DNA of 64,000 bases, from contig JABGRN010000006.1 in assembly GCA_018648265.1 (NCBI GenBank), positions 44,845 to 108,844 on the forward strand, read 5' to 3'. The position numbers and the translations under genes are program-made. Shown here piece after piece: positions 43,800 to 63,592 of this stretch (positions are counted from its first letter, which is position 1; the number at the start of each line of letters is the position of its first letter). A model generated the notes under the pieces. It did not search any database and was not told the DNA's origin. It worked only from the letters and a program-made list of their open reading frames with translations. The DNA is from Prolixibacteraceae bacterium (GTDB taxonomy: Bacteria > Bacteroidota > Bacteroidia > Bacteroidales > Prolixibacteraceae).

Positions 43800-44975
43800 T
43801 TATTTGGTTGAATTTTTTTGGATTGCATTATATTTATCCATCTGGTTAAGACGGTAATACAAGCTTTTAATTGATTCAACAGTGGCTGCATCTTCAGGAT
43901 TTAGTTCGTAACATTTTTCCATAAATGGCAGTGATTTTTCCCAATATTTATCAACTTCTTTTATTACTTTTTCATACGAGGCACTATCGTCGGATGGAAT
44001 ATTTTTCGCACTTTCAAATAATTGTACGCCTTCATTATAATAAATTACTCCAAGATTAAAATAGCCCATAAATAAATCAGTATCTAATTCAATTGCTTTT
44101 TCGTAAGATATTATTGCATTTTCATTGTCGTGATTTTTATCTAACAAATTTCCCATTGCCAAATAATATACCGCTTTATCGGGTTCGCGACTAATTGCAA
44201 GTTCTAAAAAATGCATTGCTTCTTCCTTTCGATCCATATTCAGATACAGCTGAATCATGTTGGACAAAAGTTCGTTATTTTCCGGGTATTTTTCAAATCC
44301 TTGTTTTAATGATTCCGATGCATTTATTGTGTCTTTTTTCTGTTCATAAGCCCTTGAAAGCCAAAGGTAAGTTGTTGCCCCATTGTAACCATGCCGGGCT
44401 GCCTCCCGGAAATACCTGACAGCCTTGTCTGAATCATCGGTTTTTAGAGCCATCATTCCGGCATTATAAATTATTGCCGTATCAATGCTCATCAGATTAT
44501 CGGTTTTAAACAACGGAAGATTGTTTATTTCCAGTATTTGTTCAAATGAAACAAGAGCTTTTGAGTAATTTTCTAAATTATATGCCTCAACAGCTTGATC
44601 CTGAAAATCGTTGTTTAGAAGTGTTAATTTGATTTTCACGCTTTTTGAGAATTTATTTTTTGTATCCAATTCCAAAGCTCTTTTGTAAGAATTTAGTGCT
44701 TCGGTTAGCGGATCGGTGCTTAATGCTTTGATCTTCTCATCTTTCGAATGAAAAACAGCCTGATAAATTTCTCCTCTCACTTCCCAGGTACGAGGCCAGT
44801 TGATACTTTTTGCTGATTTCTCATTGTTTTTATCAATCGTAGTTTGAATTGTTTTGAACGCCTGTTCCAATTTCCCTGCTTCTTTAAAGTTTAATGCACT
44901 TACGACTTTCCCTTTTTGTGCAAACGATGAGTTTAACATTAATAATGAAATCAGGACTAAAATTATTTTGTTCAT
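43800..44975 (-). CDS. Exported TPR-repeat protein
   Basis: A 391-residue exported protein with a signal peptide (about 1-19, ending NSSFAQ). It holds several tetratricopeptide units, clearest at about 150-345 (DSDKAVRYFREAARHGYNGAT, YLAMGNLLDKNHDNENAIISYEKAIELD). TPR arrays mediate protein binding. The first 53 codons and the upstream 135 bp are almost the same as in the chimeric gene at 45159, which shows a recent duplication. It sits downstream of the BlaI/M56 genes on the same strand, so it may be part of that operon or a secondary one. Confidence 0.85.
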   Translation of the reverse strand: MNKIILVLISLLMLNSSFAQKGKVVSALNFKEAGKLEQAFKTIQTTIDKNNEKSAKSINWPRTWEVRGEIYQAVFHSKDEKIKALSTDPLTEALNSYKRALELDTKNKFSKSVKIKLTLLNNDFQDQAVEAYNLENYSKALVSFEQILEINNLPLFKTDNLMSIDTAIIYNAGMMALKTDDSDKAVRYFREAARHGYNGATTYLWLSRAYEQKKDTINASESLKQGFEKYPENNELLSNMIQLYLNMDRKEEAMHFLELAISREPDKAVYYLAMGNLLDKNHDNENAIISYEKAIELDTDLFMGYFNLGVIYYNEGVQLFESAKNIPSDDSASYEKVIKEVDKYWEKSLPFMEKCYELNPEDAATVESIKSLYYRLNQMDKYNAIQKNSTK

Positions 44976-45110
44976 AGTTCGGATTATTTAATTGTTTAAA
45001 TCGTAGAATATTTGATTGTCTTTCTTTAAGTTGCATTTGTTTACAGAAGAAAGATTAGATTACTCAGAATATTTTTGTTAAAACTTGAAATTATTGCAAA
45101 ACAAATTTTA
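44821..45110. repeat. Direct duplication, copy A
   Basis: About 290 bp comprising the first codons of the TPR gene, the upstream spacer and an M56 tail. It is nearly identical, with only about seven differences, to 45574-45864 (offset about 753 bp). Confidence 0.85.
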
Positions 45111-45146
45111 CAGTTATTGCTATTGTTTTCCCTTTTATCGTCGATT
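45085..45146 (-). pseudogene. Remnant tail of an M56-like gene (copy 2)
   Basis: The minus-strand frame reads RFLIKSTIKGKTIAITVKFVLQ and a stop, closely matching the end of the M56 protein, but without any upstream reading frame. It lies between the TPR gene and the chimeric gene. Confidence 0.65.
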
Positions 45147-45158
45147 TAATCAAGAACC

Positions 45159-45728
45159 TTATTTAGACAGCATTAAATTTCCTGACCTCTTTTTTGTTGA
45201 ATCTTCATTAAATTCAATTATATAAGAATAAGTTCCTTTTTTAATATTATTCGTATTATCCTTCCCATTCCACCATTCAGGTTTAGAATTAGGATTTCCG
45301 TTATGTTTGTATTCCCATATTAAATCCCTATTACTATTGAATATTTTCATTTCAAAGTTAGGATATTGTTTTTCCAATCCTCTTACTTCAAAAACATCAT
45401 GCACTCCATCTCCATTTGGTGAAAATCCATTTGGAACAATAATATTCTTATTAGCCGAATTGCGCTTTGTAATTAGCTCATCCCCAACAATTGGTGAATC
45501 TGATTTATTAGAATTGTATTTGTTTTTTGTCTGAATTATTATTTTGTCTATTTCGGAAGTACTTTTTACTTTCTCATTGTTTTGATCAATCGTAGTTTGA
45601 ATTGTTTTGAACGCCTGTTCCAATTTCCCTGCTTCTTTAAAGTTTAATGCACTTACGACTTTCCCTTTTTGTGCAAACGATGAGTTTAACATTAATAATG
45701 AAATCAGGACTAAAATTATTTTGTTCAT
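45159..45728 (-). CDS. Chimeric exported protein with a T9SS type B sorting domain
   Basis: A 189-residue protein made of three unequal parts. Residues 1-53 equal the signal peptide and start of the TPR protein. Residues about 54-72 (KVKSTSEIDKIIIQTKNKYN) match two separate segments of the M56 protein. Residues about 95-189 form a gliding-motility-associated (TIGR04131-type) C-terminal domain (IIVPNGFSPNGDGVHDVFE, WWNGKDNTNN, GTYSYIIEF), which directs proteins to the Type IX secretion system. It is probably a recombination product, now exported to the surface if the gene is expressed. Function unknown. Confidence 0.75.
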   Translation of the reverse strand: MNKIILVLISLLMLNSSFAQKGKVVSALNFKEAGKLEQAFKTIQTTIDQNNEKVKSTSEIDKIIIQTKNKYNSNKSDSPIVGDELITKRNSANKNIIVPNGFSPNGDGVHDVFEVRGLEKQYPNFEMKIFNSNRDLIWEYKHNGNPNSKPEWWNGKDNTNNIKKGTYSYIIEFNEDSTKKRSGNLMLSK

Positions 45729-45864
45729 AGTTCGGATTATTTAATTGTTTAAATCGTAGAATATTTGATTGTCTTTCTTGAAGTTGCATTTGTTTACAGA
45801 AGAAAGATTAGATTACTCAGAACGCTTTTGTTAAAAACTTGAAATTATTGCAATACAAATTTTA
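45574..45864. repeat. Direct duplication, copy B
   Basis: Partner of 44821-45110. It spans the first codons of the chimeric gene, its upstream region and the last codons of the intact M56 gene, showing that the duplicated unit joined an M56 end to a TPR-gene start. Confidence 0.85.
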
Positions 45865-48800
45865 CAGTTATTCCAACCGTTTTTCCTTTAAATTCCGTGA
45901 TATCGATAATCGGCATTTTATTGATGACCCGTCTTGTTTCGTCAACCATAAGTTGCTCTTCAATTTTTCTTGCATTTTCCGCTTCCGCTTTTGTTCCGTA
46001 ACCGTTAACAACAACTTCTTTTGTTTTGTTACCCGCAACAACTACTTCACCAACTCTTATTTTAATATACCCGTCCTTCTCGTTAATCGAAGTAATATTT
46101 CCCTTTTTATCAATTTGCACCGATAATTTTACGACTTTTTCGCGATTTGCTTCTTGTGCCAAAACAGGATACCTGATTTCCTTTGCAATAAATTTTCGAA
46201 ACTTTAACTCAGTATCTATTTTATCGTTTTCGGAAGTACTTTTTACTTTCACTTTGTCGGTGTAAAGTTTTCGGCTTGAAACTTCGTAAACACCGTATTT
46301 CCCTAATTCACCATATTTTTTTACAGCTTCTTTTGGTTCAACTTTATTAATGTCCTTTATCAAGTCGCGGTCGAGTGTGTGTAAATTAAACTCTGTAGAT
46401 TTTCCGTTAAGTATTACGGGTAAAGTAATTTGGGCTGCATGAACACCTTTTATTGAAATTTCAATTACTCCGTTTTTTCCTCTGTCGCCATATTTAGAAA
46501 TAGCGGATTCATCTTTTAAAACACTAACCGATTGTATCGTTTCCGGATCGATGTCATCCATCGATTTATAACCTGTAATAATTCCATCGGTTACAATTAA
46601 TGGTTTTTTATTTTCGGTGTTGTACTTGGTTTTTGTCTGAATTATTATTTTGTCTATTTCGGGTCCTTTACCATCATAAATATTTGTGTCGGTTTGATTT
46701 TTTTTCACTTCCATACTGATAATATCTGTAACCGGAATATCATTTATATTGCCATAAAATTCCTTTCCGTCAACGATTAATGCCGGATTTCCAGGTAAAT
46801 TCTTTGAAGTGAATTTCACCGAATTTTTTGTAGTTACCAGAATCACCCCATTTTTCCCTTTTTCGCCATATTTAGAAATAGCAGATTCCTTTTTTAAAAC
46901 ACTAATCGATTGTATCGTTTCCGGATCGATGTCATCCATCGATTTATAACCGGTAATAATTCCATCGGTTATAATTAAAGGTTTGTCATCGTCTAATGTT
47001 GATAGGGAAACCCCTTTTTCGCTAATAATATGCCTTTTATCAGCAGGTTTAAAACTTAAGTTTTTCCAGGCAGTTCCCGATTTCCCATTCAGTTTTATTT
47101 GATCGTTTACTTTTTCAATTTCGAATAAAAATCCTGAAAGGGTTTGGTCGATTTCTGAAGAACTTATTCCTTTTTTATCTATTACAACTGGATTATTATT
47201 TTTTATAGAAAATGTTAATTCCTTAAAAGCACATCCAGACAGCCCCCGAAGTTTTATTTTGTTTTGGTGAACTTCAATTGAAATCAAAAAACTTTCTAAT
47301 TCTACTGTCTTCTTATTTAGTGCTTTCTTTTTAGTAGTTATATAAATAACTCCATTCTTCCCCTTTTCGCCATAAAGTTCAGTGGCTGTTTTGTTTTTTA
47401 AAACATCTATACTGGCAATATCTTCAACCGTAACATCGTTTATGTTCCCATCAAATTCCTTCCCGTCAACAATGATAAGTTTATCGCTTGTGTTAAAATC
47501 TTTTTTGAATTTTGTTTCAATACAAATTACCCCGTTTTTGCCTTTCTCTCCGTACAAATCAGTTGCCGATTTATCCTTTAAAACATCAATACTTTCAATG
47601 TTTTCAGGAGGCAAATAGGTAATATCTTCCACTTCTTTTCCATCAACAATATAAAGTGGTGGATTTTTCATATTTGGACTTATCCGAACAACCTCCGAAT
47701 CAAATTCCATGTTTGAGGAAGGATAGCCAACCGCAATTTTTGTAGCGTTTTTATTGTTTTCATTTCTTTTCTCAAGAGATTCGATTTCTAATCCAAGCTT
47801 ACTATATTTCCTAATCTGTTTTACTGTTGGGACAAAATTTATGGGAACGGTATAAGATACGTTTACAATTTTGCCATTTTGTTTGCCGGGCTTCCATTTA
47901 GGGAGTGTATTTACAACACGCAATGCTTCTTTGTTAAGTGACGGATCAACACCCCTTGAAATTTTCGGATCATTAACCTTTCCATTTTTATCAATAATAA
48001 ATGTTACATATACTTTTCCATGTATTCCCTTCTCCAATGCAATCTCCGGATATTTGATACTGTAATCAATGTATTTCTTCAAAGCTTTTTCGCCTCCTGG
48101 AAATTGTGGCATTTCTTCTACTTTATAAAAAACTTCATCACCCTGGCTTTTTTTGCCGGTTTGTTTCGATTTGTAAGTTGAAATTAGGATATCGTGCGAT
48201 TTTGCTTTTTCATTGGGAACTAACTCAACATCAATTTCTGATTGACCGGCAACAAGAATTTCTTCCATTTTATAATCAATCATCCAAAAAATTAAAGTCT
48301 CATTCTTTTCTTCTAATTTGATTTCGTAATTACCCATACGATCTGTAATTGTCCCGATGGTTTTACCTTTAATAAGAATTGATGCTCCTGAAATTGGGTC
48401 GCTATTTTGGTCGGTTACTTTTCCTTTGACAACATGTTTGTATTTTGTGTTGATTGTAACACTTTTTGTACCTACTGAAACACTTTTATCTGAATTCAAC
48501 TTTATATTAATTTCATTTTTATTATCTACTGGAATTTCCAATTTTTCGAAACCAACCATTATAAAAACCAGCGTTTCATTTTCATTATCGAGCCGGAGTT
48601 CGTAATTCCCATTTGCATCGGTAATTGTTCCAATTGTTTTACCTTTTACGATAATTGATGCCCCTGAAATTGGGTCGTCTTTTGGATCGGTTACCTTTCC
48701 CTTTACTATTATTTTCTCCTTATTTTCAATGCGTTTCATTAAAAGTTTATATTCCTCTGAATCGATTTCTGTATTAAAAGTCAGCACACCATTTTTACCT

Positions 48801-49918
48801 CTTTCGCCGTACAATTCAACGGCTTGGTTCGGTTTAATCGATTTGCCAAACTTTAAATCAGTTTCATTAAAAACAATTTTTTCGATTACTTCTTCCCCAT
48901 TAAAAAATAATAGAGGCGCATCTTCTCCATAATCTTGTAAAGTGAAAATCCCATCGTGATAAATCTTTGATAAAAATTCTTTATCCGTCATTTTTAAAAA
49001 ATCATTGTCAAATTGACTCAATTCAATTTTGTTTTCAGGCTGAATAATTTCAGTCCTCACTTCCCTGCTCGACAACCCCATCACTAAAATAGCGAGGAGC
49101 GGAAGAACCACCAATTGTTTTAAAACGGCGTACTTGCTTTCTGTTTTCTTTTTCATCATAATAATGCGGTTTTTAAGTTGAGAACCATTCAAAGCAGTCA
49201 GAAAAGGTGCAACCCCTTTTTTGTCGGCTAATCCAACCATGGCCAGTTGGTAAGCTTGCGGGTTGTGGTTTTCCGCAATTTGATGATCGGTTTTATATTC
49301 TAAATTGTTTTTTATGGCATCTTTTATTAACCAGGCAAAAGGATTAAACCACTGAGCAAGAAATAGCAGTTCAGCAAAAAGAATGTCTAGCGTGTGTTTT
49401 TCTTTTACATGAATGTTTTCGTGGCTGACAATTATTTCGAGGTTGGGGTGGGAAAGTGTTTTCTCGGAAAGAACTATTTTGTTGAAAAATGAAAAGGGAT
49501 GAATATCTTTATTTGTAACGTTAACTTTTACCTGAAAAAGGTTTTTAATCCAACTTCGTTTTACAATTGAAATGGCTTTTAAATGCCCGAGTAAAAGATG
49601 GAATAAAAAACCACACGAACCTAATATGTACAATCCAAATAAATAATGATACCATTGAAAAACAAATCCGATGGGTTGTACAATTTCTGTGGAGTTTGCT
49701 ATGTATGCGAAACTATTAGAATTAAAAGAAACGGGTTCAACAATTTTTACGGTTGTAAATGTAATTAACGGAATTAAAAAACTCAGTGCCAGCGAAACCG
49801 GCAAATAAAACCGGTTAAACATAAAGTGTTTTTGGTTCTGAAAAAGAACAAGATAAGCAAGATAGAATGCTCCGGTTGCAAGCGCCGATTTCCCGATGTA
49901 AAACAAATAGTTTTCCAT
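45845..49918 (-). CDS. BlaR1-like M56 metallopeptidase fused to TonB-C and plug-like repeats
   Basis: An unusually long (1357-residue) member of the BlaR1/MecR1 M56 family. The N-terminal part (about 1-285) has four hydrophobic segments, the zinc motif HENIH (166-170) and a downstream NLEYKTDHQIAE (about 205-216). Carboxypeptidase-regulatory-like domains are at about 402-475 and 496-570, a TonB C-terminal-like domain is at about 605-695, and a second is at about 1235-1357. Seven segments (about 329-385, 752-803, 813-863, 978-1032, 1044-1096, 1104-1158, 1166-1217) repeat the SusC plug signature (VLKDKSATDLYGEKGKNGV). Two further similar segments (about 876-975) lie between them. The start overlaps the blaI stop by 1 bp. 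It probably cleaves or inactivates BlaI on a periplasmic signal. Confidence 0.85.
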   Translation of the reverse strand: MENYLFYIGKSALATGAFYLAYLVLFQNQKHFMFNRFYLPVSLALSFLIPLITFTTVKIVEPVSFNSNSFAYIANSTEIVQPIGFVFQWYHYLFGLYILGSCGFLFHLLLGHLKAISIVKRSWIKNLFQVKVNVTNKDIHPFSFFNKIVLSEKTLSHPNLEIIVSHENIHVKEKHTLDILFAELLFLAQWFNPFAWLIKDAIKNNLEYKTDHQIAENHNPQAYQLAMVGLADKKGVAPFLTALNGSQLKNRIIMMKKKTESKYAVLKQLVVLPLLAILVMGLSSREVRTEIIQPENKIELSQFDNDFLKMTDKEFLSKIYHDGIFTLQDYGEDAPLLFFNGEEVIEKIVFNETDLKFGKSIKPNQAVELYGERGKNGVLTFNTEIDSEEYKLLMKRIENKEKIIVKGKVTDPKDDPISGASIIVKGKTIGTITDANGNYELRLDNENETLVFIMVGFEKLEIPVDNKNEINIKLNSDKSVSVGTKSVTINTKYKHVVKGKVTDQNSDPISGASILIKGKTIGTITDRMGNYEIKLEEKNETLIFWMIDYKMEEILVAGQSEIDVELVPNEKAKSHDILISTYKSKQTGKKSQGDEVFYKVEEMPQFPGGEKALKKYIDYSIKYPEIALEKGIHGKVYVTFIIDKNGKVNDPKISRGVDPSLNKEALRVVNTLPKWKPGKQNGKIVNVSYTVPINFVPTVKQIRKYSKLGLEIESLEKRNENNKNATKIAVGYPSSNMEFDSEVVRISPNMKNPPLYIVDGKEVEDITYLPPENIESIDVLKDKSATDLYGEKGKNGVICIETKFKKDFNTSDKLIIVDGKEFDGNINDVTVEDIASIDVLKNKTATELYGEKGKNGVIYITTKKKALNKKTVELESFLISIEVHQNKIKLRGLSGCAFKELTFSIKNNNPVVIDKKGISSSEIDQTLSGFLFEIEKVNDQIKLNGKSGTAWKNLSFKPADKRHIISEKGVSLSTLDDDKPLIITDGIITGYKSMDDIDPETIQSISVLKKESAISKYGEKGKNGVILVTTKNSVKFTSKNLPGNPALIVDGKEFYGNINDIPVTDIISMEVKKNQTDTNIYDGKGPEIDKIIIQTKTKYNTENKKPLIVTDGIITGYKSMDDIDPETIQSVSVLKDESAISKYGDRGKNGVIEISIKGVHAAQITLPVILNGKSTEFNLHTLDRDLIKDINKVEPKEAVKKYGELGKYGVYEVSSRKLYTDKVKVKSTSENDKIDTELKFRKFIAKEIRYPVLAQEANREKVVKLSVQIDKKGNITSINEKDGYIKIRVGEVVVAGNKTKEVVVNGYGTKAEAENARKIEEQLMVDETRRVINKMPIIDITEFKGKTVGITVKFVLQ
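46490..46985 (-). repeat. Internal near-identical DNA repeat in the M56 gene
   Basis: Two about 110-bp units (46499-46605 and 46867-46975) share almost all bases of atcgtttccggatcgatgtc and the neighbouring words. They encode the two TDGIITGYKSMDDIDPETIQS plug-like repeats, indicating recent internal duplication. Confidence 0.8.
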
Positions 49919-54030: not shown

Positions 54031-54870
54031 ATGATTTTAATAGCCGACAGTGGTTCAACAAAAACTACCTGGTTTTATTCTGGTGTAACAATAGGAAATG
54101 AACTTATAACTACACAAGGAATTAATCCATTTTTTCGAACCGCCGACAATATTATTTTGGAGTTGAAAGAAAGTTTAGTACCCCAATTAAAAGGACAAGT
54201 TGAGCAAATTTTTTTTTATGGCGCAGGAATAATAAATAAAGAAAAAGCAAATGTGGTGAGCTTGGCATTAAATAGATTGTTCCCTGATTCAGAAGTTGAG
54301 GTTCAAAGCGATTTAATTGCTGCCGCCCGTGCAACTTTGGGAAATGAACCCGGGATTGCATGTATTTTAGGGACGGGCTGTAATTCGGGATTATACAATG
54401 GAAGTGAGATAACTGCTCATGTTCCACCACTTGGTTTTATTTTGGGAGATGAGGGAAGCGGGGCCGTTTTAGGGCGTAAATTATTGGCAGATTTTCTAAA
54501 AGGAATTATGCCTGAAAATTTATCCCGACAATTTAAAAAACAGTATCCATTTGAATATCCTGATTTTCTTGAAAAAGTATATCGACAAGAAAAACCCAAC
54601 AAATTTCTGGCGCAATTTGTACCATTTATTAAAGAAAATATCAATGAAGAATATTGCAGGTTAATAGTTGAAAATTCTTTTGATGAATTTGTAACCCGAA
54701 ATATTTCGAGGTATTCGGATTTTGCGAAACAAAAAATTTGCTTTGTAGGATCGGTAGCATTTCATTTTCAGAAACAATTAAAAGATGTATTAATCAGAAA
54801 TAATTTGAAATTGGAATTTGTTTTAAAAGAGCCAATGGAAGGCTTGAAACGATTCCATACAAAATTTTAA
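54031..54870 (+). CDS. BadF/BadG-type N-acetylhexosamine kinase (MurK-like or GlcNAc kinase)
   Basis: A 279-residue ASKHA kinase of the BadF/BadG/BcrA group. Motifs are DSGSTKTTW (phosphate loop, residues 5-13), IACILGTGCNSGLYNG and the Gly-rich LGDEGSGAVLG. Such enzymes phosphorylate N-acetylglucosamine or N-acetylmuramic acid at C6. The murQ gene 0.5 kb downstream on the same strand favours a MurK-like role, as in the Tannerella MurTKQ cluster. A MurNAc transporter (MurT-like) is not nearby. Substrate remains unproven. Confidence 0.82.
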   Translation: MILIADSGSTKTTWFYSGVTIGNELITTQGINPFFRTADNIILELKESLVPQLKGQVEQIFFYGAGIINKEKANVVSLALNRLFPDSEVEVQSDLIAAARATLGNEPGIACILGTGCNSGLYNGSEITAHVPPLGFILGDEGSGAVLGRKLLADFLKGIMPENLSRQFKKQYPFEYPDFLEKVYRQEKPNKFLAQFVPFIKENINEEYCRLIVENSFDEFVTRNISRYSDFAKQKICFVGSVAFHFQKQLKDVLIRNNLKLEFVLKEPMEGLKRFHTKF

Positions 54871-56410: not shown

Positions 56411-56786
56411 ATTTTTCAAGACCCTGTACATTAGCTCTTTATACGAACACACATCTTAAACATGTTCCAAAACATACGAAAAAATATGGTTTCGTAAAAT
56501 ATATTTTGCTTTTTTCGGTAACGTTAACGACCATTTTTTTAGAAGAAGAAATAAGTTGAAAAAAAACGAGAAATGGTGATTCATTAAACGCGGATTCCCA
56601 AAATATTTATTTAAAATTGAAACAAAAAGACTAATAACTAAATAAACTAATAAACTTAATGCCTATGTAAATATCTGTCGTTTCGAATTTAAAAAGGGAA
56701 TCGGTAAACAAATTCGAATATTCCCAAAATCAATTTTGAATTCTTTTTTGAATAATTACAATTTAATAATTAAACAAATCAAACCT
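56409..56786. other. Leader region of the SusC gene
   Basis: An AT-rich stretch between the terminator and the SusC ATG at 56787. A weak TATATTTTG-like box is present near 56500, but no gene, operator or repeat was recognised. No anti-sigma/ECF pair lies beside the genes. Confidence 0.4.
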
Positions 56787-59700
56787 ATGAAAAAAAACAC
56801 AACGCAAAGTTCTTTGCTAAGTAAACGATTTTCGTTACTGGCAAAGTTATTTTTGGTTGGGATTTTTCTTATTTCTCAACTTGGGGCAATGGCCCAGCAA
56901 AAAACAATTACCGGAACAGTGGTTGGCGATGATGGGGTACCAATCCCCGGAGTTACTGTTTTTGTAAAAGGAACAACATCGGGTACTGTATCCGATATTG
57001 ACGGAAATTTTTCACTGACAAATGTACCTGAAAGTGCAACTCTGGCATTCTCATTTGTTGGTATGAAAACACAGGAAATTGTTGTTGGAAATCAAACATC
57101 AATAAATGTAACTTTGGCGGTTGATGCCATCGGTCTCGATGAGGTGATTGCCATTGGTTATGGTACGGCTCGTAAAAGTGACTTAACCGGAGCTATTGTT
57201 AACGTTAAGGCCGAAGAGCTTATTAAGTACCAACCTGCCAACGTTCAGGAATTATTACGTTCTGCAGTACCTGGATTAAAAGTGGGTTACAGCACCAGTG
57301 CAAAAAACACACCTGATTTTGAGGTTCGTGGTGACAACACAATTAAATCAGATGATGATGACGAAACATCTGCAAACCGCCCTTTGATTGTACTGGATGG
57401 TACTATCTTTAATGGTGACATTGCAGAAATCAATGTTAATGACATTGAAACTGTTGACGTATTAAAAGATGCCAGTGCCGCATCTATTTACGGTTCGCGT
57501 GCATCAAACGGTGTTATTGTATTTACTACTAAAAAAGGTGCTTTCGGTAAACCTATGATTAGGGTTTCAGGGAAATATGGTATTGTAACAAAAGGTGTAA
57601 GAAACGAAACCATGAAAGGCGAAGAAATGCTGGGATGGCTGGTTGACTTGCAGGAATCGCTTACCAACAATATTGGTGAGCCATGGTCTGAATTTGATGA
57701 TCCCCGTAAATTATCGGGTGGCGACCTTGATGCATGGAAAACCGCAAGTGGTATTGCCGGTGAATCTAACCAAGACGTAATAAACGGAAGGTGGTTGGAA
57801 ACATTGGGATTGGATAGCGATGAAATAATGAATTTCCAGGCAGGCAGGGAATTTGACTGGCAGGATTTCTTATTCACTACCGGTGAAAGGCACGATTATG
57901 ACGTTAGTATTTCAGGTCGTACCGAAAGAGTGTCTTATTACTGGTCCGTAGGAATGATAGACAGTGAAAGCGTTCAACTTGATGAAAAATACTCATCCAT
58001 TACATCACGTTTAAACCTTGAAGTTGAAGTTACTGATTTTTTGAGTACTGGGATTTATGCGAATTTTACTTACATGAACGAAGGTAACAGAGCTATTGAT
58101 GGTGGTGGGTACCGTACAGCTTCACCCTACGATAGCCCATGGGAAGCCAGAGTTTGGGGTGACCCGGACATTGTGGATACCGGTGGAGTATTCCGATACC
58201 CAAACGAATATTTGAAACAAAATCTTTCAGGTTCAAACCGGAGTAATTCTTACCTCTCATCCGCATATTATGAAAGGAATTACGACGAATACCGTATATT
58301 TCCAACCATGTTTGTCAAAGCAACTTTGCCATTTGGCATTACCATCGAAACCAAAATGACAACCCGATTGAATTTCAGAAAAAGATTTGAATATGAAGAT
58401 AGCGGAAACCCGGAATGGGGACATGGAGGAGAAGTACGCAGGCGACATAATCAAACCTTCGAATGGCAATGGGATAATATTTTAAACTGGACCAAGGAGT
58501 TTGGAGAACATCGTTTTAATGCAACCGGACTTATAAATGCAGAACGTAGCCAAAGTTGGTACACCGATGCACAAAATTCGAATTTGCAACCAACAGAAGC
58601 TTTAGGATTTCATGGTATTGGATTTGGTATTAACCCAATTGTAGGTTCTGATGACCAGGCCGTAACCAGAACAGCTTTAATGGGACGTGTTAATTATGGA
58701 TTCAGCAATCGTTACAACTTTTCAGCATCTATACGCCAGGACGGTTATTCCCGTTTTGGAGAAAACTATGTTCATGCTACCTTCCCTTCGGTTTCGGCAG
58801 CCTGGACAATTACCAATGAAGCCTTTATGTCTGCCAGGCCCGATTGGATGGAATTCCTGAAAATTCGTGCCAGTTGGGGCGTAAACGGTAACTCCAGTGG
58901 TCTTTCTTCGTATGCAGCTTATTCTAACTTGGATCGAAGTAAATACCTGAACTGGTCAGGAGGTTATTTCCCGGCAAACCGCTTAACAGTTGGAAGAATA
59001 GCTAATCCAAACCTGGCATGGGAGAAAAACGATGCCTTTAACCTGGCTCTTGACTATGGCCTTTGGGACGGACGAGTGAGAGGTTCATTGGATGTATATT
59101 CAGCGAATACAACCGATTTGTTGTTAAACAAAAAACTCCCGGTTTTAACTGGTTTTAACGAGATTACAACCAACGTGGGTAATTTGAAAAACACAGGTTT
59201 TGACTTATCTGTTAATACCATGAATGTTGATAACAATGATTTCACATGGACAACCAGTTTTAATGTAAGTTATAACAAAAATGAAATTGTATCCTTAACC
59301 GGAGAAGAGGTTGAAATGACCGATGCGGATGGGAATACCTATATGGCTGAACCGGATGATTTTGACAACGGATGGTTTATTGGTCAAAATAAAGATGTAA
59401 TCTGGAATTTTGAAATGGGAGATGTTTACACTACAGATGAAGCTGCTGAAGCTGCTGAGTGGGGATTAAAGCCCGGTGATTTCAGGATTATAGATCAGAA
59501 TAACGATGGTGTACTTAACACTGATGATAAAGTATTCCAGGGTTTATCTAAAAATCCATGGTACCTTACTTTAAGAAACGATTTTACCTATAAAAACTTT
59601 GATATGGGTATTGTCTTTTTAAGCAAATTAGGTTATAACGCAGGAAGTTCGTTGCCATTTAACGAAGACCAAACCTACATTAAAAACCACAACTGGTGGG

Positions 59701-59996
59701 CCAGTATTGACTACTGGATGCCGGATAACCAACTTAGTGATTTCGCCAGGATAAATTCAAATCGACTAAACAGTGATATGAGGATTTATGTGCCAAAAGA
59801 CTACTTACGTTTACAAAATTTATCTATAGGCTACAACCTTCCTTCTGATTTATTGGAATCTGTTAAGATAAGCCGTGCTCGTGTTGCATTTAATGCTGAT
59901 AACGTACTTGTACTTACTAAATGGTACGAGGGAGATCCGGAATCAAATGTTGAGATGCCAAGAACATTCTCCTTTAGTGTTGACTTTTCTTTCTAA
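56787..59996 (+). CDS. SusC/RagA-type TonB-linked outer-membrane transporter
   Basis: A 1069-residue outer-membrane importer. A signal peptide (about 1-35, ending LGAMAQ) is followed by the carboxypeptidase-regulatory-like domain (about 38-112: ITGTVVGDDGVPIPGVTVFV), the plug with the SusC marker DVLKDASAASIYGSRASNGV (about 225-250), and a 22-stranded barrel. It ends with FSFSVDFSF, ending in an aromatic residue as expected. The Met at 56787 is preferred to the track start (56736) because it begins a normal signal peptide. With the SusD partner it would bind and import an oligosaccharide; the glycan is not known because no hydrolase is next to it. Confidence 0.95.
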   Translation: MKKNTTQSSLLSKRFSLLAKLFLVGIFLISQLGAMAQQKTITGTVVGDDGVPIPGVTVFVKGTTSGTVSDIDGNFSLTNVPESATLAFSFVGMKTQEIVVGNQTSINVTLAVDAIGLDEVIAIGYGTARKSDLTGAIVNVKAEELIKYQPANVQELLRSAVPGLKVGYSTSAKNTPDFEVRGDNTIKSDDDDETSANRPLIVLDGTIFNGDIAEINVNDIETVDVLKDASAASIYGSRASNGVIVFTTKKGAFGKPMIRVSGKYGIVTKGVRNETMKGEEMLGWLVDLQESLTNNIGEPWSEFDDPRKLSGGDLDAWKTASGIAGESNQDVINGRWLETLGLDSDEIMNFQAGREFDWQDFLFTTGERHDYDVSISGRTERVSYYWSVGMIDSESVQLDEKYSSITSRLNLEVEVTDFLSTGIYANFTYMNEGNRAIDGGGYRTASPYDSPWEARVWGDPDIVDTGGVFRYPNEYLKQNLSGSNRSNSYLSSAYYERNYDEYRIFPTMFVKATLPFGITIETKMTTRLNFRKRFEYEDSGNPEWGHGGEVRRRHNQTFEWQWDNILNWTKEFGEHRFNATGLINAERSQSWYTDAQNSNLQPTEALGFHGIGFGINPIVGSDDQAVTRTALMGRVNYGFSNRYNFSASIRQDGYSRFGENYVHATFPSVSAAWTITNEAFMSARPDWMEFLKIRASWGVNGNSSGLSSYAAYSNLDRSKYLNWSGGYFPANRLTVGRIANPNLAWEKNDAFNLALDYGLWDGRVRGSLDVYSANTTDLLLNKKLPVLTGFNEITTNVGNLKNTGFDLSVNTMNVDNNDFTWTTSFNVSYNKNEIVSLTGEEVEMTDADGNTYMAEPDDFDNGWFIGQNKDVIWNFEMGDVYTTDEAAEAAEWGLKPGDFRIIDQNNDGVLNTDDKVFQGLSKNPWYLTLRNDFTYKNFDMGIVFLSKLGYNAGSSLPFNEDQTYIKNHNWWASIDYWMPDNQLSDFARINSNRLNSDMRIYVPKDYLRLQNLSIGYNLPSDLLESVKISRARVAFNADNVLVLTKWYEGDPESNVEMPRTFSFSVDFSF

Positions 59997-60056
59997 ACCA
60001 ACATGAGGAAATTAAAGTTTAAATTAAAGAATTATTTAATGCTTAAAAATAAAGAG

Positions 60057-62129
60057 ATGAAAAAAATAAAAAATATCGCGGGATTGGTACTTGTCATACT
60101 GCTTACATTTACTATATCGTGCAACGAGGACTTTCTGGTGGAAGAACCAATGTCATTCCTTAGCCCGGAGAATACATTCAAGGATGCAGCTGGTTTGCAA
60201 TCTGCATTGGATGCAGCCATGTATCAAGTTTTTGACCAGGTGCAAGGTGATGGTAGGGAACTACAGTTCAATCACAATATGAGTGAAGTTACAGCTGTTA
60301 CTAAAACTGATGCCCAGGCTTCTTATGCCGACCTGGTAACTTATTTTACACCTTATAATGATAACCAGGCGCCAGCGGGTAGAAGTGTAGAATCCTACGA
60401 AAATGACTACAGAGGACTTAAAGCCGTTAATACGGTTATCGATTACATCGACCAACCTGAATGGGGAGGCGGAGATGCTGATCCTGAAAGGAATCACTTA
60501 TTAGGAAGTGCTTATTTTTTGCGTGGCTTCTTCTACATGCAGTTAACCATGCAATTCGGAAACGTTGCGTTCCCATTGAATGTTGTTTCTGAAGCACGCC
60601 AGGATTTTAAAGTGTTCAATATGCAGGGAATTTGGGATCAAATGATTACCGACCTGGAATATGCAGTAAAATGGGTAAAACCAATAAGTGAGTTGCCAAA
60701 AGGCCAAGCACCGAATGCTGCTGCAAGAATGTTGCTTGCCAAGTTTTATATCCTTAACGAAAGGTTTGCCGATGCCGAAGCACAAATGGACGCTGTTATC
60801 AACAGCGGCGAATCGCAACTGTTTACCGATGCGATGGTTGGTAGAGATTCGGTTATGGTTGGTAATCAGATAAATCCTTACCACGAAAAAGGTTGGGAAG
60901 GTAGTGGAAAAGCAGAGGAATTAATTCTTCCGGGAGCAAGTGCCATTGTAGCTGCCGATGCAATAAATGTTTTACATACAAATTATGATGGTGAACCTGA
61001 TCCATTCGGTGCAGAATTTGGTACTCAAAAATTAACAAATAAGGAGGGTATATGGTTGATGACAAATGCCCCTTTTCTAGATGGAAGAATAAGAGAGTCG
61101 GCCTCTGTTCGTAGCTGGGGGCCTAACTTTGGTACCAAAACATTCAGGGCTTTTACTCCCGATGGTAAAATTGGCTTTGAAGCCGACCAGGGTTATAAAG
61201 GTTTAATGATGCTGAAATGGGGCCGTGGCCAGGGTTTTTCCGGACCTACTAACTATGGTGAATATGAAATTTGGCAATATAATGGCGAAATGGATTATCA
61301 GGACTACCGCCATAAGCCGGGTAACTTCTTCTGGATGGAAGATTTGGTTTATGACTATGAACCGTTAAATGGTACTTCGCCTTATTACCGTAAAAATGCA
61401 CAGCTATGGGCTGACGACGGAACGCTTCTTTGCGAAGATACTCTTCGTTGCTGGTTTAGCTTCCCGCTGTATAAAAAGTGGGGGCAAAACTATGAAAGTA
61501 ATGTTAGAAGGCAGCATGGTGGAAGACAAAGCACTTATATTTTAAGAAAAGCTGAAGCTTATTTGATTCGTGCAGAAGCAAGATTCTGGCAAGGCGATTT
61601 GGCAGGGATGCTTGAAGATGTTAATATCATCCGCGAACGCGCCAATGCTAAAGTAACATTTACCATGGCAGATGCTCAGACAGCCGGCTTAAGTATGGTT
61701 ATGGACGAACGTGCCCGCGAATTGTATGGCGAGGAATTCAGGCACGATGAAATGGTGCGTTGGTCAGTAGCTTATGCCAAGACTGGAAAAAGTTGTTACA
61801 ACGGAAAAACTTATTCGATTTCCGGAAACGATATTGAAACATCATTATCGGCAAATAGTTTCTATTACGATAGGATGATGGAGAAAAATAATTACTTCAT
61901 CGAACAAACTCCATGGAAAACGTATCCGGATGTTAAATACAGAATAGAGCCAATGCACATTTGGTGGCCGGTTTACGAACCATTCCTTATTGGGAATGTT
62001 GGTGCCATTTTAAACCAAACAACAGGTTACGAAGGTTCTGCTGGGAATATTGAACCCTTAGTTCACGTTGTTCAACCAGCTGGTGTACCTAATGTAGATC
62101 CGCAATATGCCGTTGAACCACCAGAATAG
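60057..62129 (+). CDS. SusD/RagB-type glycan-binding lipoprotein
   Basis: A 690-residue surface lipoprotein partnering SusC. Met at 60057 (MKKIKNIAGL) gives a proper signal sequence with lipobox TISC-N; the track start (60003) would add 18 residues. The SusD start (FLVEEPMSFLSPENTFKD), the TPR-like helices with NHLLGSAYFLRGFFYMQL, and the C-terminal RARELYGEEFRHDEMVRW are typical. It is longer than the usual 500-600 residues, mostly through loops in the region 290-440 (EGIWLMTNAPFLDGRIRESA). It begins 60 bp after the SusC stop. Confidence 0.94.
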   Translation: MKKIKNIAGLVLVILLTFTISCNEDFLVEEPMSFLSPENTFKDAAGLQSALDAAMYQVFDQVQGDGRELQFNHNMSEVTAVTKTDAQASYADLVTYFTPYNDNQAPAGRSVESYENDYRGLKAVNTVIDYIDQPEWGGGDADPERNHLLGSAYFLRGFFYMQLTMQFGNVAFPLNVVSEARQDFKVFNMQGIWDQMITDLEYAVKWVKPISELPKGQAPNAAARMLLAKFYILNERFADAEAQMDAVINSGESQLFTDAMVGRDSVMVGNQINPYHEKGWEGSGKAEELILPGASAIVAADAINVLHTNYDGEPDPFGAEFGTQKLTNKEGIWLMTNAPFLDGRIRESASVRSWGPNFGTKTFRAFTPDGKIGFEADQGYKGLMMLKWGRGQGFSGPTNYGEYEIWQYNGEMDYQDYRHKPGNFFWMEDLVYDYEPLNGTSPYYRKNAQLWADDGTLLCEDTLRCWFSFPLYKKWGQNYESNVRRQHGGRQSTYILRKAEAYLIRAEARFWQGDLAGMLEDVNIIRERANAKVTFTMADAQTAGLSMVMDERARELYGEEFRHDEMVRWSVAYAKTGKSCYNGKTYSISGNDIETSLSANSFYYDRMMEKNNYFIEQTPWKTYPDVKYRIEPMHIWWPVYEPFLIGNVGAILNQTTGYEGSAGNIEPLVHVVQPAGVPNVDPQYAVEPPE

Positions 62130-62317: not shown

Positions 62318-62345
62318 AAGGGTGTCGATATTCGACACCCTTTCT
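62318..62345 (+). terminator. Intrinsic terminator after SusC/SusD
   Basis: Stem aagggtgtcga (62318-62328) with tcgacaccctt (62332-62342) followed by tct. Clear GC-rich hairpin. Confidence 0.75.
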
Positions 62346-62404: not shown

Positions 62405-62433
62405 TTTGATTCTATTTAAAATAATTATTTTTG
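62405..62433 (+). promoter_or_regulatory. Candidate promoter of the serine-hydrolase-like gene
   Basis: TTTG (62405-62408), a 17-base spacer and TATTTTTG (62426-62433), with the ATG 37 bases further on. The gene is thus probably transcribed apart from SusC/SusD. Confidence 0.5.
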
Positions 62434-62470: not shown

Positions 62471-63592
62471 ATGAAACAAATTTTTTCTCTATTAATTTTA
62501 GTCGCAATTTTATTGGCTTTTGGGGCTTGCGAAAAAAAACAAGCTAATATAATTTACGACAAATCGTACATCGATGAAATAAAACTGGCGCGAAAAGATA
62601 TTGCTCTTTATGTTGCAAGAAATTCTATTCCGGGTGCAACCTTTGCAATTGCAAAAGAAAATGAAATAATCTATTCCGAGGGAATGGGATATGCATCGAA
62701 AGAATTGGATGTACCAATGACACGTGAAAATAAACTTAGGATTGGTGATGTTTCACAATTATTTACTTGTGCGATTTATTTGAAATTGGTAGAAGAAGGA
62801 GTTTTACACCCTGATTCTACAGTTCAACATTATATCCCTAATTATCCGGCGACAGAATATAAACTCGCTATAAAACGTTTGCCATATCATACCTCAGGGA
62901 TCAGAAAGGAAAATCTCAGAGAAGGTGACTTGCCTGGACTAAATATTAGTATTCAAAAAGGGCTCGAAAGTTTCAAGAACCATGAACTAAATTCACCTCC
63001 GGGGTGGTACGAGGAAGTGAGTATGTTCAATACCAATCTTCTTGGGGCTGTAATGGAAAGAGCTACTAAGAAAAAATTCCCGGTATTGTTAAAAGAATAT
63101 ATTACGGACACTCTGCATTTGACTAATACAGTAGTTGATGACCCTTCTGCTACCATTAAAGGCCGGACAAATTTTTACGATCAAAATATGATGGGGCAAT
63201 GTATTAACGCACCTTTCAGAGATATGAGGTACAAGGCTCCTTACGAAGGTATTTTATCAAATGCCGAAGATTTAGTAAAATTTGGTATGGCTATTTTAGA
63301 ATCCGATTATTTTGGTGACGAATTTGAGGAAAAATATTTTGAACCGATTGATCTTTACGAAGGTCATAAATCGAATTTGGCCAATGGTTGGATGTTTAGG
63401 CTAGACAAACAGGGAAGATTAATGTACGGAAGTAGTGGTAGCGTTAACGGAGGTGGAGCTGCAATACTTATTTATCCGGAATACAAATTGGTTATCGCAT
63501 GTGCCATGAACCTAACAGTAGGCATCGATAATTTGCCTGTAGTTGATATTGCTAGCCATTTTTTACAAGATCATGGATCTGAGGGAAAGTAG
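62471..63592 (+). CDS. Serine-hydrolase-fold lipoprotein, likely inactive
   Basis: A 373-residue lipoprotein of the beta-lactamase/class C (PBP4*-like) family. Signal peptide with lipobox FGAC (Cys20). The order of family landmarks is kept, but the catalytic ones appear changed. The Ser-x-x-Lys position reads DVSQ (93-96 in RIGDVSQLFT). The Tyr-x-Asn position reads MFN in SMFNTNLLG. The His-x-Gly region reads YGSSGSVNGGG. HTSGI is kept. It is thus probably a binding protein or pseudoenzyme, not a hydrolase. It lies after a SusC/SusD pair, but with its own terminator and promoter in between. Confidence 0.82.
   Translation: MKQIFSLLILVAILLAFGACEKKQANIIYDKSYIDEIKLARKDIALYVARNSIPGATFAIAKENEIIYSEGMGYASKELDVPMTRENKLRIGDVSQLFTCAIYLKLVEEGVLHPDSTVQHYIPNYPATEYKLAIKRLPYHTSGIRKENLREGDLPGLNISIQKGLESFKNHELNSPPGWYEEVSMFNTNLLGAVMERATKKKFPVLLKEYITDTLHLTNTVVDDPSATIKGRTNFYDQNMMGQCINAPFRDMRYKAPYEGILSNAEDLVKFGMAILESDYFGDEFEEKYFEPIDLYEGHKSNLANGWMFRLDKQGRLMYGSSGSVNGGGAAILIYPEYKLVIACAMNLTVGIDNLPVVDIASHFLQDHGSEGK

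Follow-up and report, generated by a model that had tools for sequence, protein, structure and literature searches.

A clade of LACTB-type lipoproteins in Prolixibacteraceae that lacks the catalytic residues of the S12 beta-lactamase fold

We describe an S12 beta-lactamase-fold lipoprotein, encoded in a 64,000-nucleotide stretch of Prolixibacteraceae DNA (the window), that belongs to a conserved clade in which the catalytic motifs of the fold are lost. The original prediction of a pseudoenzyme lipoprotein is strongly supported by the loss across the whole clade, by purifying selection and by the lack of a shifted site. Judged from its sequence, the window protein is very probably non-catalytic, and we put a role in binding or sensing at about even chances.

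The reading frame lies exactly where it was originally placed, and the protein and its former motifs map as follows.

62471 to 63592, plus strand: gene for a PF00144/S12 beta-lactamase-fold lipoprotein without any catalytic motif (373 aa, ATG start)
62513 to 62530, plus strand: lipobox LAFGAC (Cys20), followed by EKKQA and without an acidic surface-export signal (from the sequence)
62747 to 62758, plus strand: former SxxK, now D93-V94-S95-Q96 (alignment to intact relatives)
63017 to 63025, plus strand: former YxN, now V183-S184-M185 (alignment to intact relatives)
63431 to 63439, plus strand: former HxG, now S321-S322-G323 (alignment to intact relatives)

PF00144 (Beta-lactamase) is the single Pfam family found on the protein (146.1 bits against a curated cut-off of 27, E 1.9e-42, residues 44-351). 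Against the NCBIfam equivalog for class C beta-lactamases it scores 49.3 bits, far under the curated cut-off of 415, and it is therefore not a class C beta-lactamase proper. Among solved structures, human LACTB and S. aureus Flp are nearest in sequence. LACTB (SISK/YST/HTG) shares the motif order and has similar landmarks between the motifs, and members of its family keep SxxK, [SY]x[NT] and [KH][ST]G (PMC2266909), whereas the window protein lacks all three and is a bacterial lipoprotein. An AlphaFold2 model built from a 19-row alignment (pLDDT 81.6, pTM 0.84, low confidence at residues 230-248) bears out the S12 fold. Its top Foldseek matches are Flp, LACTB, ClbP and the R61 DD-peptidase, and the PDB entries for Flp, LACTB and R61 match at TM 0.68-0.80. 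The fold is thus shared with the Flp/FmtA-like protein of S. aureus, the R61 DD-peptidase and class C beta-lactamases, but these are active serine enzymes. By DSSP of the predicted model, residue 93 opens helix 92-108, residue 183 immediately precedes helix 185-199 and residue 321 lies in strand 317-325, which we take to be where the catalytic residues sit in the S12 fold.

Alignment with intact relatives confirms that all three catalytic motifs are absent from the window protein. The replacements are Ser93 to Asp, Lys96 to Gln, Tyr183 to Val and His321 to Ser, at positions where Lys96, Tyr183 and His321 are each present in 23 of 23 intact relatives. The original reading was right for motif 1 (DVSQ) and for motif 3 (GSSGS, within which S321-S322-G323 are the aligned residues). 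For motif 2 it was off by two columns, as MFN occupies residues 185-187 and YxN aligns to V183-S184-M185; this leaves the conclusion of motif loss unaffected. Fourteen PF00144 genes of the source genome reach E 1e-15, and twelve of them keep SxxK; it is missing from the window gene and from that gene's one close paralog, which is 50% identical and lies on contig C119. The retention of SxxK in the other twelve genes indicates that the loss is not due to chance.

Nearly every searched genome of the window's genus holds a relative with 44-74% identity, and a scan of named genomes places such relatives in Draconibacterium, Maribellus, Mariniphaga and Tangfeifania. A profile search of 140 Prolixibacteraceae genomes gave matches in 76 genomes from 13 of 23 genera; a few of the matches are intact paralogs. 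The motifs were read at 63 loci in 61 Prolixibacteraceae genomes (58 non-redundant rows), none of which has an intact Ser-Lys pair, a motif-2 Tyr or a motif-3 His (0/58 for each among the rows), whereas intact relatives in the same set keep Ser, Lys, Tyr and His in 14/14. The motif-1 Lys position is held by Glu in 34/58 rows and by Gln in 16/58, and the motif-3 His position by Arg, Gln or Lys in 41/58 (Lys in 9/58); the motif-3 Gly is retained in 54/58. Three divergent members, L193 (GVSK), L194 (GVSK) and L223 (TASK), keep the motif-1 Lys and have lost the Ser, and may record the sequence of steps by which the site disappeared.

In trees built with the motif columns left out, 44 lost-motif rows fall on one side of a 100/100 branch, which requires one change of state. 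A wider tree of the 58 rows, made by a quick method, recovers the same single grouping (SH-aLRT 99). The lost-motif members thus form one clade, and one ancient loss accounts for all of them. The closest intact proteins are an Ancylomarina protein, which sits on a long branch and is unsurely placed, and the LACTB-like SISK/YSS/HGG proteins of the window's genus. Pairwise dN/dS (Nei-Gojobori, with one saturated-dS pair set aside) is 0.09-0.14 in the main group, 0.27-0.33 in the window's subgroup and 0.06-0.14 among intact relatives. The clade has therefore been retained under purifying selection since it lost its catalytic residues, and the window gene is not decayed. As the loss is common to relatives across the whole family, the protein was probably retained to do something else, for example to bind a fragment of the cell wall.

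The usual order in most genomes of the window's genus is an SDF symporter, a His_kinase (PF06580) gene, a LytTR response regulator, a gap of 80-310 bp, the pseudoenzyme gene and a DUF4230 gene. This two-component (LytS/LytTR) linkage is confined to the one genus, and elsewhere an SDF symporter or unrelated genes adjoin; a sensor role is therefore not general. In Mariniphaga, the symporter lies directly 5' of the pseudoenzyme gene. Other genera have different upstream genes, often a set encoding 504, 169 and 511 aa that three genomes of the window's genus also have near the pseudoenzyme gene. In eight genomes of that genus, an EstB-like serine hydrolase gene with an intact SxxK lies just downstream of the pseudoenzyme gene and convergent to it (for example L048:11620-12933 and L055:12288-13505).

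The window gene departs from this order. It belongs to a subgroup of four (SH-aLRT 100), made up of the window, G012, G001 and a second copy in G132 (Mariniphaga sediminis), and SusC and SusD precede the gene in all four, a secondary context for the family. The window neighbours are listed below.

54031 to 54870, plus strand: MurK-type MurNAc/GlcNAc kinase (match to 8ow9, E 2.2e-68; PMC10465942)
55356 to 56171, plus strand: MurQ, N-acetylmuramic acid 6-phosphate etherase
56736 to 59996, plus strand: SusC/RagA-type TonB-dependent transporter
60003 to 62129, plus strand: SusD-like lipoprotein with an acidic C-NEDF start

The MurK and MurQ genes are homologues of those in the MurT-MurK-MurQ MurNAc salvage operon of Tannerella forsythia (PMC5388701, PMC10465942); unlike the window, the operon has no beta-lactamase-fold lipoprotein named in the accessible text of these accounts. 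GHL10, MurK and MurQ lie upstream of the pseudoenzyme gene in the window and in G012, and the G001 contig stops short of that region. Between 52420 and 62129 of the window, GHL10 (divergent), MurK, MurQ, SusC and SusD are consecutive, an order kept in L041 and one that may mark a MurNAc salvage locus. Homologous SusCD or SusD genes in other genomes adjoin unrelated genes, which argues against a dedicated muropeptide uptake locus and makes the MurK-MurQ linkage non-diagnostic. G011 has a homologous SusCD pair facing an oxidoreductase of the type seen in G012, with no pseudoenzyme gene between them, which is consistent with the gene having come to this place later. At L041:9516-9803, SusD and the pseudoenzyme gene are separated by a 95-aa ORF resembling an IS200/REP-associated transposase.

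Two further loci of the window were noted by the way. The minus-strand frame at 45845-49918 encodes 1357 aa that appear, by eye, to be an M56/BlaR1-type peptidase fused to TonB-type ends and to numerous short repeats that recall plug segments of SusC (VDGKE...DVLK...YGEKGKNGVI). Two neighbouring minus-strand ORFs at 43800-45728 share an N-terminal stretch (MNKIILVLISLLMLNSSFAQKGKVVSALNFKEAGKLEQAFKTIQTTID), after which one continues as a TPR-like protein and the other as a gliding-type C-terminal domain; the pair looks like a partial tandem duplication.

Two candidate transcription signals separate susD from the window gene.

62318 to 62342, plus strand: terminator-like hairpin of 11 pairs
62405 to 62433, plus strand: Bacteroidetes-type promoter motif TTTG-N17-TATTTTTG

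Hairpins were seen by eye at the same spot in L042 and L218, making three of the four subgroup members, and the -7 element of the promoter motif is kept upstream of most close relatives. The Bacteroidetes promoter consensus is TTTG/TAnnTTTG, and TAnnTTTG occurs at most 120 bp upstream in 36 of the 63 loci, compared with a mean of 4.6 in mononucleotide shuffles. As predicted elements, the hairpin and the gene's own promoter motif argue against co-transcription with susCD.

All 63 family members have a lipobox-like Cys. Residues +2 to +6 carry a mean charge of +1.2, and acidic export signals are rare among the 63. In Bacteroidetes, acidic residues after the +1 Cys are a surface-export signal (PMC5080379), and the mature starts of the neighbouring SusD proteins are of this type (C-NEDF, C-NDEF, C-NEEF and C-SEEF; C-NEDFL in the window). 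The window protein (C-EKKQA) lacks such an acidic signal, with the experimental basis for the signal lying outside these bacteria. The simplest reading would place SusD on the outside and the window protein facing the periplasm. The adjacency to SusC and SusD that was originally pointed out holds in four genomes, and the working partnership drawn from it fares poorly, given the secondary context, the hairpin, the promoter motif and the missing export signal. As a main role, it is also set aside by the placement of most of the family elsewhere. Together, the hairpin, the promoter motif and the absent acidic signal suggest that the protein is probably a periplasm-facing binding or sensing protein and not a surface partner of SusCD.

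The strongest rival to a binding or sensing role is a structural one, in which the fold serves polymerisation or membrane organisation as in LACTB filaments and the pocket does nothing. Among solved proteins, LACTB gives the top sequence match and one of the closest fold matches; it forms membrane-bound filaments and binds membranes (PMC9815587). The former catalytic positions also drift freely across the clade, with 11 residue types at motif 1 and 13 at motif 2, while core fold residues are fixed. The bias to Glu or Gln at the Lys site (50/58) and to Arg, Gln or Lys at the His site nevertheless suggests that the pocket is under some constraint, and we consider the structural role possible but unlikely.

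Residual catalysis in some other form is less credible. Several presumed pseudoenzymes elsewhere have turned out to be active, and the conservation of D267, S263, R90, D223 and K88 in the clade could mark an active site of a new kind that has gone unrecognised in this fold. S263, R90 and D267 look structural, however, because they are fixed in intact relatives as well, and no conserved His or Cys column, nor a conserved Ser-Lys arrangement, was found in the 58 rows; we hold a new active site to be rather improbable. An ordinary S12 hydrolase with a shifted but intact Ser/Lys/Tyr site might be suspected from Ser95, which is two residues from the nucleophile position and present in 49/58 rows. 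Intact relatives, too, have a serine here as the normal third residue of SxSK, and the window protein has no Lys at +3 from Ser95. A column-by-column search of the clade found no shifted site, the best alternative SxxK column being present in 10/58 rows, and such a site is very improbable. The reading that can be given the least credence is a decaying gene without function. It could appeal to the dN/dS of about 0.3 in the window's subgroup, above that of the rest of the family, but this value is still well below 1, the open frame, lipobox and promoter motif are intact, and conservation extends over the bacterial family; dN/dS and conservation together lead us to reject functionless decay.

Returning to a binding or sensing role, we start from the Ser-Lys dyad, Tyr and His, which were lost in one LACTB-type clade of the Prolixibacteraceae, and propose the following. 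The protein would be anchored in the envelope facing the periplasm, with its substrate cleft presumably remodelled (Lys to Glu or Gln, His to Arg, Gln, Lys or Ser, and the GGG loop to SxG). This cleft may bind a ligand uncut, most likely a peptide or a peptidoglycan fragment, and the bound state could be passed on by protein contact, with the protein acting as a co-sensor or accessory protein. The window copy would be a duplicate, probably with its own transcript, downstream of the SusC/SusD pair and the MurNAc salvage pair. Taken as a whole, this picture of an ancient, family-wide clade of non-catalytic LACTB-type lipoproteins that face the periplasm, bind a ligand without cutting it and signal through protein contact is in our view evenly balanced. 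As for the ligand, the presence of the SDF symporter and the LytTR system suggests that a small acid or peptide may be sensed or taken up, and MurK-MurQ beside the duplicate copy points to peptidoglycan fragments. We infer a peptidoglycan-type ligand from the one pointer to it, the presence of MurK and MurQ nearby in two genomes. No single residue is fixed at the former catalytic positions, so that one conserved ligand does not follow from them. A family-wide periplasmic receptor for peptidoglycan fragments, with LytS/LytTR signalling in one genus and a tie to MurNAc salvage in the duplicate, would be an improbable extension.

Non-catalytic members of enzyme families are an already known kind, and the open-licence literature searched yielded no description of a conserved non-catalytic clade, or of such members, within the S12 beta-lactamase fold. 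Genes of this fold are routinely annotated as beta-lactamase or serine hydrolase, a label that would mis-describe the whole clade. The intact LACTB-like proteins L060-L072 (SISK/YSS/HGG) of the same genus are 31-34% identical to the window protein, of similar length, and share genomes with other clade members; they differ from it in their intact catalytic residues and their genomic place. With a single well-supported loss and intact sisters in the same genus, the clade allows a direct comparison of ligand binding between proteins that have the catalytic residues and proteins that lack them. Should the ligand prove to be a fragment of the cell wall, the clade would give these bacteria a new means of sensing or handling the turnover of peptidoglycan.
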